A DNA stretch of 64,000 nt from NCBI RefSeq assembly GCF_000384215.1, contig NZ_KB913032.1:6657605-6721604 (forward strand), given 5' to 3'. This stretch comes from Amycolatopsis alba DSM 44262. Lineage in GTDB: Bacteria > Actinomycetota > Actinomycetes > Mycobacteriales > Pseudonocardiaceae. Positions 42,344-42,364 of this stretch are shown here, one piece after another. The notes beneath the pieces were generated by a model that did not search any database, had not been told where the DNA came from, and was given only the letters and a program-made list of their open reading frames with translations. Position 1 is the stretch's first letter, and each line of letters begins with the position of its first letter. Made by a program: the position numbers and the translations under genes.

Positions 42344-42364
42344 GGGGTCTTGCCGCAAGCCCCC
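42344..42364. promoter_or_regulatory. Rifamycin-associated element (RAE)-like palindrome
   Basis: 21-base inverted repeat: arms GGGGTCTTGC (42344-42353) and GCAAGCCCCC (42355-42364) around a central C, nine of ten pairs matching. It resembles the palindrome described upstream of rifamycin-inactivating genes in actinobacteria (GGGGCTTGC-type half sites, recalled from memory). It lies between rox and the TetR gene, 57 bases before the rox start. Confidence 0.7.

Follow-up and report, generated by a model that had tools for sequence, protein, structure and literature searches.

The 64,000-nucleotide stretch of the Amycolatopsis alba DSM 44262 genome considered here (the window) carries a rifamycin-associated element (RAE) upstream of rox, the gene of a rifampin monooxygenase. 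Judged by its letters, the site is a genuine RAE before a genuine Rox. Comparison with RAEs of other genomes suggests, furthermore, that two promoters, mirror images of each other, meet at the palindrome as their common midpoint, the first facing the gene and the second directed backwards. What is new here is this view of the RAE, predicted to be the dyad of a larger unit that comprises the mirror pair of promoters and a hairpin placed at the first base (+1) of the antisense RNA.

The palindrome GGGGTCTTGCCGCAAGCCCCC lies at positions 42344-42364, on neither strand in particular, and consists by direct reading of two 10-base arms and a single centre base, nine of the ten pairs being complementary. 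Its half-sites are GGGGTCTTGC and GGGGGCTTGC, and the mismatch between the arms falls on the n position. The original prediction, made from the DNA alone, of a 21-base palindrome with GGGGnCTTGC/GCAAGnCCCC arms had placed it correctly. One pair is mismatched, and 56 bases separate the palindrome from the TTG start of rox (42287-42285, minus strand). The 19-bp RAE core GGGnCTTGCnGCAAGnCCC, the letters of which follow the window and not the published logo, is present at 42345-42363. Published RAEs are described as 19 bp long (PMC10719064, PMC10194278). The palindrome measures 21 bp here, and the conserved unit is far larger. Base composition, with G+C assumed to be 69%, leads one to expect about 0.002 exact matches to GGGGnCTTGCnGCAAGnCCCC in 9.8 Mb. 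With up to three mismatches, the RAE pattern occurs at seven places in the genome (three exact, two with one mismatch, and two with three). The control, the same pattern read backwards, occurs 25 times per strand at the three-mismatch tolerance (mismatch numbers not shown), so that the three-mismatch places carry no meaning and only the near-exact ones count.

The site was also scored with a sequence-only model of 83 positions, termed R1 and built from 58 of 69 listed units. This model includes three further sites of the same genome (L006, L007, and L008) and that of a close relative (L092), while the window site and a fifth one (L005) are omitted. The window site is the best match of the genome, with 79.2 bits and an E-value of 1.3e-21. 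The scan returns the same five good sites of this genome, a single contig of 9.81 Mb, with E-values starting from 8.8e-14, and the next place, reverse-strand copies aside, has an E-value of 0.2. These five sites precede rox, a Rox-like monooxygenase gene, two rgt-like genes, and helR, all of them of rifamycin-resistance type. The identification of the palindrome as an RAE is thereby upheld, and the model-based scan that had been proposed for it is passed, with a model built here and not the published one.

The flanks were compared in a sample of sites, obtained by scanning the genomes of named species for GGGnCTTGCnGCAAGnCCC. It holds at least 119 stretches and, with the own genome, 126 sites; all counts out of 117 or 125 refer to it, that is, to the matches listed. 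One locus (L070), the flank of which is cut off, was left out, and the 125 scored sites divide into 117 taken as genuine and eight taken as chance (flank score of -35 or below), seven of the latter being in records named as other phyla. For 89 of the genuine sites, the ground for acceptance was a match to rox, rgt, or helR in tblastn; the flank scores of two of these are -14 and -20. The other 28, devoid of such a match, were accepted by a flank score above -1; the flanks thus helped to select these 28, which makes the 89 the fairer set.

Numbered in gene orientation, with R1-R19 for the 19-mer, conservation of the flanks spans from about -32 to +31. On the rox side, a -10-like hexamer CAGAAT (42328-42333, minus strand) lies 19 bp from a -35-like TTGCGG located inside the RAE (42353-42358, minus strand). 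Its mirror image on the plus strand, pointing away from rox, is formed by a -35-like TTGCCG, also inside the RAE (42350-42355), and a -10-like TATGTT (42375-42380). Across the sample, the sense hexamer xAxxxT occurs at +12 to +17 in 114 of the 117 sites, and in no more than 26 when the offset is set elsewhere between 4 and 29. The antisense TAxxxT occurs at -12 to -17, again in 114 sites, against at most one elsewhere in that range. Both are mirrored at equal distance in 113 sites, and TTG is found within the RAE at a 19-base spacing from each hexamer. None of the eight chance sites has both hexamers, and two have the sense one alone. The 89-site set yields the same picture (sense A 98% and T 97%; antisense T 97%, A 97%, and T 98%). 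The two arms differ in quality: the sense -10 is weak (CAnAAT), its first base being C in 149 of 169 sites, whereas the antisense one (TAnGTT) is nearer to consensus, beginning with T in 163 of 169, and is followed by GG at the predicted +1 and +2 in 149 of 169. A TATAGC upstream of the RAE was considered as the sense -10 and rejected: the TAnGTT of the other strand fits the -10 pattern, the best-conserved columns, and the start of the hairpin. For mycobacterial helD, promoter 2 is described as having a -35 region that the RAE overlaps (PMC10719064).

The hairpin, GGCAGGGAGA-GTCGA-TCTCTCTGCC, is terminator-like, occupies 42387-42411 on the plus strand, starts at the predicted antisense +1, and is followed by a weak T-run (GTTGTCATT). 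A hairpin scoring at least 14 is found near the antisense first base in 74 of the 117 sites, compared with 357 of 2340 shuffled sequences (15%) and nine of 117 on the sense side, used as a control. The eight bases after the stem of these 74 hairpins contain on average 4.1 T, against 2.0 expected from composition, and a T-run is frequent there. In a second sample, described below, for which the far arm of the stem lay outside the search model, a hairpin is present in 25 of 44 sites (shuffles 299 of 2200; sense side nine of 44). The stems covary: arms pair better within a site than when dealt between sites (15.7 vs. 12.9, standard deviation (sd) 0.3, in a permutation that retains relatedness). 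The difference persists with one site per arm sequence (n = 68; 12.9 vs. 10.9, sd 0.35) and with the 52 arms unlike the commonest (12.0 vs. 10.3, sd 0.42). Among the maximal perfect stems of at least 8 bp in 161 sites, 28 start exactly at the antisense +1 and three at +2, with at most one per position elsewhere from -24 to +11 and up to three at farther places; stems at -41 to -44 are the RAE palindrome itself. By gene class, the hairpin is common before rph (8/9), rox (19/29), helR (26/41), and rgt (10/16).

The genes located downstream of the 117 sites are helR (41, plus one doubtful), rox (29), rgt (16), rph (9), arr (9, plus one doubtful), a second monooxygenase type termed "rox2" (6), and an MFS transporter (1), the locus ending too early in four cases. 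The genes following 24 of the 28 flank-accepted sites were named by eye and four were checked with NCBIfam (L030, L079, L058, and L057). Two (L022 and L075) are devoid of a readable frame and were named by likeness, an Arr motif being found later in the genome of L075 (L135). The second sample results from a search of 296 genomes of the phylum with R1, in which 52 genomes matched at E ≤ 0.01, a count that takes in this genome itself and some weak hits. Of 55 loci outside this genome, a selection from the listed rows, 52 are followed by a gene homologous to a member of the set found in the first sample: rox type (21), rph (14), helR (9), arr (4), rox2 (2), and rgt (2). Of the three loci devoid of an assigned gene, L234 is followed closely, by eye, by the start of an rgt-like gene, L241 seems to be a spurious match, and L188 is the third. 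In both samples, the nameable genes on the downstream side, the side surveyed, are of resistance type only, and no regulator is found among them.

The unit is also present in another phylum. Among 61 Stenotrophomonas genomes, 26 contain a single RAE core each and the other 35 contain none, and the backwards control is absent from all. The same 26 genomes (L136, L150-L174) possess an Arr homologue with at least 85% identity over its length, starting about 60 bases past the core. Neither a 47% homologue, seen in one additional genome, nor an incomplete second copy, seen in one of the 26, is accompanied by its own core, and a motif search near the core recovers Arr in 24 of the 26. The L079 protein reaches 153.6 bits with the NCBIfam rifampin ADP-ribosyltransferase model (cut-off 130). 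Alignment of the 26 units shows no variation in the sense -10 TAGACT, one variable column each in the RAE and the antisense -10, four of 19 in the hairpin arms, and six of six at positions -23 to -18; this pattern of conservation may be taken as support for the unit, not as proof of it. Further sites outside actinobacteria come from Chloroflexi bins (L081, L099, and L129) and a Xanthomonadaceae bin (L094 and L243). Aerophototrophica crusticola (L102) has a site, the hexamers of which do not fit. Sites in bins and short contigs may be contamination. Similar DNA is found in 34 plasmid records, every one from actinobacterial genera. Carriage by phages was considered and rejected: 55 viral contigs match a looser core, with a best flank score of -33, and all were taken as chance.

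How RAEs sense rifamycins is stated to be unknown in the literature (PMC12802891, PMC10719064). The proposal put forward here, to which we would give an even chance, is that the mirror promoters sharing the RAE centre are mutually exclusive, and that an idling antisense arm silences rox until rifamycin shifts initiation. Two promoters on one centre should exclude each other. In the absence of rifamycin, RNA polymerase would be drawn to the antisense arm, which would yield a terminated transcript of about 32 nt, and would thereby occupy the shared centre, leaving rox nearly silent. Rifamycin would halt this idling, and initiation would move to the sense arm. As the sensor, we lean towards the polymerase itself. 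That RNA polymerase senses rifamycin at RAEs with no dedicated regulator, the idle state being a strong backward promoter that runs into a terminator from its very first nucleotide, is a tentative extension and rather unlikely as it stands. RNA polymerase can re-initiate after termination. In a variant of the mechanism, one polymerase would re-use the idling arm after each short run and rifamycin would break the loop.

Several observations speak against this mechanism or the architecture beneath it. The two -35-like elements overlap and the centre is shared, so that an antisense polymerase stalled by rifamycin should block the sense arm too, an objection that the re-use variant escapes. When the opposed promoters of the Bacillus subtilis rifampicin alarm (see below) are brought 17 bp closer, induction is abolished (PMC12802891), and the sense start reported for Mycobacterium smegmatis helD, about 20 bp upstream of the RAE (PMC10719064), is not accounted for. 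The 19-bp spacer is long, and the strict GGGG/CCCC arms are unexplained by promoter elements and resemble a protein site. Regarding the hairpin, 43 of the 117 units are under the threshold, and it is mostly missing before arr (present in 2/9) and rox2 (2/6). That of the window combines a good stem with a weak T-run. Fold z-scores are modest in three of four stretches (L018 hairpin, -3.5; L079, -1.1); for the window hairpin, folded from two bases inside the stem, the energy is -10.6 kcal/mol with z -1.9. Nor is the antisense -10 of the Stenotrophomonas units less variable on average (0.077, from its one variable column) than the upstream DNA (0.062). Finally, the far side of the RAE in this genome holds regulator genes at two sites, the TetR gene of the window and, by eye, a LuxR-like gene at L006.

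The strongest rival is a classical operator, i.e., a rifamycin-responsive protein dimer that would occupy the RAE and thereby switch the sense promoter. In that case, the antisense promoter would be a second target or a by-product of symmetry, and the terminator would merely shield the neighbour from backward transcription. The palindrome with its strict arms speaks for such a dimer, both PMC12802891 and PMC10719064 suggest an unknown factor, and the M. abscessus helD case as told in PMC10719064 points the same way, although a -35 region was removed there as well. Yet no regulator is among the genes named on the downstream side, the side surveyed, and a by-product would not need to retain the first T of the antisense -10 while the sense one is C. 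Erosion is also stronger in the right half than in the left (CCC is intact in 44 of 52 sites, GGG in 52 of 52), which is unexpected for a symmetric dimer, and the unit occurs in another phylum. On balance, we hold the operator to be a plausible reading, somewhat short of an even chance.

A further reading, held to be very unlikely, is that the RAE is transcribed as part of the rox leader and works there as a riboswitch or attenuator, i.e., as a structured RNA. The length of the conserved stretch and the RNA fold of the palindrome (-12.8 kcal/mol, z -1.4) favor it, but the RAE arms are conserved as sequence with their n positions often unpaired, the hairpin that covaries lies to the antisense side, and the predicted sense start is downstream of the RAE. 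No Rfam family reaches its gathering score in 15 loci, the window stretch giving one sub-threshold match, and the structured leader was dropped on that account. That the palindrome arose by chance, or that the element has nothing to do with rifamycins, has next to no probability and is refuted as far as sequence permits: core matches devoid of flanks exist (eight of the 125 scored sites and all 55 viral-contig matches to the looser pattern), but the window site has its flanks and the E-value given above.

The rox gene itself (40860-42287, minus strand) starts with TTG and encodes a 475-residue rifampin monooxygenase. It reaches 868.3 bits with the curated equivalog NF033145 (cut-off 800), and 723 and 722 bits with the solved rifampin monooxygenases 5KOW and 5VQB, respectively, in keeping with the Rox-type assignment first made from the sequence. 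The closest Rox among the loci fetched is that of Amycolatopsis decaplanina (L092, 92%). On the other side of the RAE, a perfect 20-bp palindrome, GTAACGAACATGTTCGTTAC (42494-42513, on neither strand in particular), is probably a TetR operator, a function deduced from its position. It lies about 80 bp from the hairpin and is a unit separate from the RAE. It is followed by the gene of a TetR-family regulator (42523-43197, plus strand, ATG at 42523), with 51 bits for NF038211 and 49 bits for NF010319 (tetracycline TetR), both below cut-off, and by that of a TetX-like FAD monooxygenase (43194-44327, plus strand). The latter fails as Tet(X), with 179.2 bits for NF033111 against a cut-off of 750. 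Two resistance modules had been proposed to sit back to back here. The TetR palindrome is real and stands just before the TetR gene; the second resistance module is unsupported, since both neighbours score far below the TetX and TetR cut-offs.

The other four RAEs of the genome precede a 497-residue Rox-like monooxygenase (L005, 4083-5576; NF033145 341 bits, below cut-off), two rgt-like glycosyltransferases, both best matched by NF000354 (L006, 670 bits, and L007, 376 bits, against a cut-off of 800), and helR (L008; NF041465 1362 bits and NF041258 1350 bits, both above cut-off). The 21-mer GGGGTCTTGCCGCAAGCCCCC is found identically at G000 204632 and in the window at 42344, before two different monooxygenases. 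The rox2 clade (L005, L024, L028, L033, L116, L128, L204, and L232) is about 58-64% identical to the L005 protein, and its members from the first scan share 36% identity with Rox. The three scanned (L005, L024, and L116) show no NCBIfam match above cut-off; judged by their association with RAEs, these monooxygenases are likely rifamycin enzymes. A third RAE-linked group (L076, L129, L243, and others), with about 43-48% identity to Rox, is also present in Chloroflexi bins; three members that were scanned pass NF005303 (PRK06834, "hypothetical protein"). In Actinoplanes aureus (L030, 229-1794), an RAE precedes an MFS efflux protein, the best NCBIfam matches of which are OtrB and Tcr3, below cut-off, and which is a candidate rifamycin exporter. 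Some RAE variants keep GGGG-n-CTTG and CAAG-n-CCCC intact, or nearly so, with three centre bases changed (L203, L205, L207, L214, L225-L227, L231, L234, and L236).

The unit provides a handle for finding candidate rifamycin-resistance genes through their control region. It points to the two monooxygenase clades above, which the models used do not name as rifamycin enzymes, and to arr in Stenotrophomonas. If the polymerase were indeed the sensor, a regulator-free cassette would function at any place of insertion, and it would then be understandable that a single unit serves arr, helR, rox, rgt, rph, and other genes across more than one phylum. The precise architecture, the predicted RNA of about 32 nt, and two separable promoters make the question of RAE sensing directly testable.

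An RAE before Rox is in itself nothing unusual, as Streptomyces venezuelae is known to have one upstream of its rox (PMC10719064). RAEs of actinobacteria are described as palindromes upstream of rox-, rgt-, arr-, and helR-type genes that overlap the sense -35 (PMC10719064, PMC12802891, PMC8655204, PMC10194278). They are found upstream of the HelR group, some members of which lack them, and one is documented in Nonomuraea, which bears a resistant rpoB (PMC8655204). The unit described here differs from these 19-bp palindromes by its mirror-image antisense -10-like hexamer, its terminator-like hairpin at the predicted +1, and its occurrence in Stenotrophomonas. In the literature searched, outside of which most subscription papers lie, the available texts say nothing of antisense promoters or terminators at RAEs or of RAEs in Stenotrophomonas, and those of PMC11077062, PMC8492726, and PMC13246000 contain nothing on RAEs. 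Two systems offer precedents for promoter interplay as a response to rifampicin. In the B. subtilis helD/pps alarm, two opposed promoters also precede rifampicin-protection genes, and the antisense one dominates but loses to the sense one once rifampicin arrests the polymerase (PMC12802891). In M. smegmatis rpoBC, promoter interference is likewise relieved by rifampicin; both promoters drive the same operon, however, and the available text mentions no RAE there (PMC10719064). The B. subtilis promoters converge and can be occupied together, whereas the -10s at RAEs face apart and the predicted promoters diverge from a shared centre. Moreover, in the RAE unit, unlike in B. subtilis, the hairpin would end the predicted antisense RNA at once. 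The RAE unit is thus not a convergent pair of the B. subtilis type, but it may resemble that alarm in the way it works.
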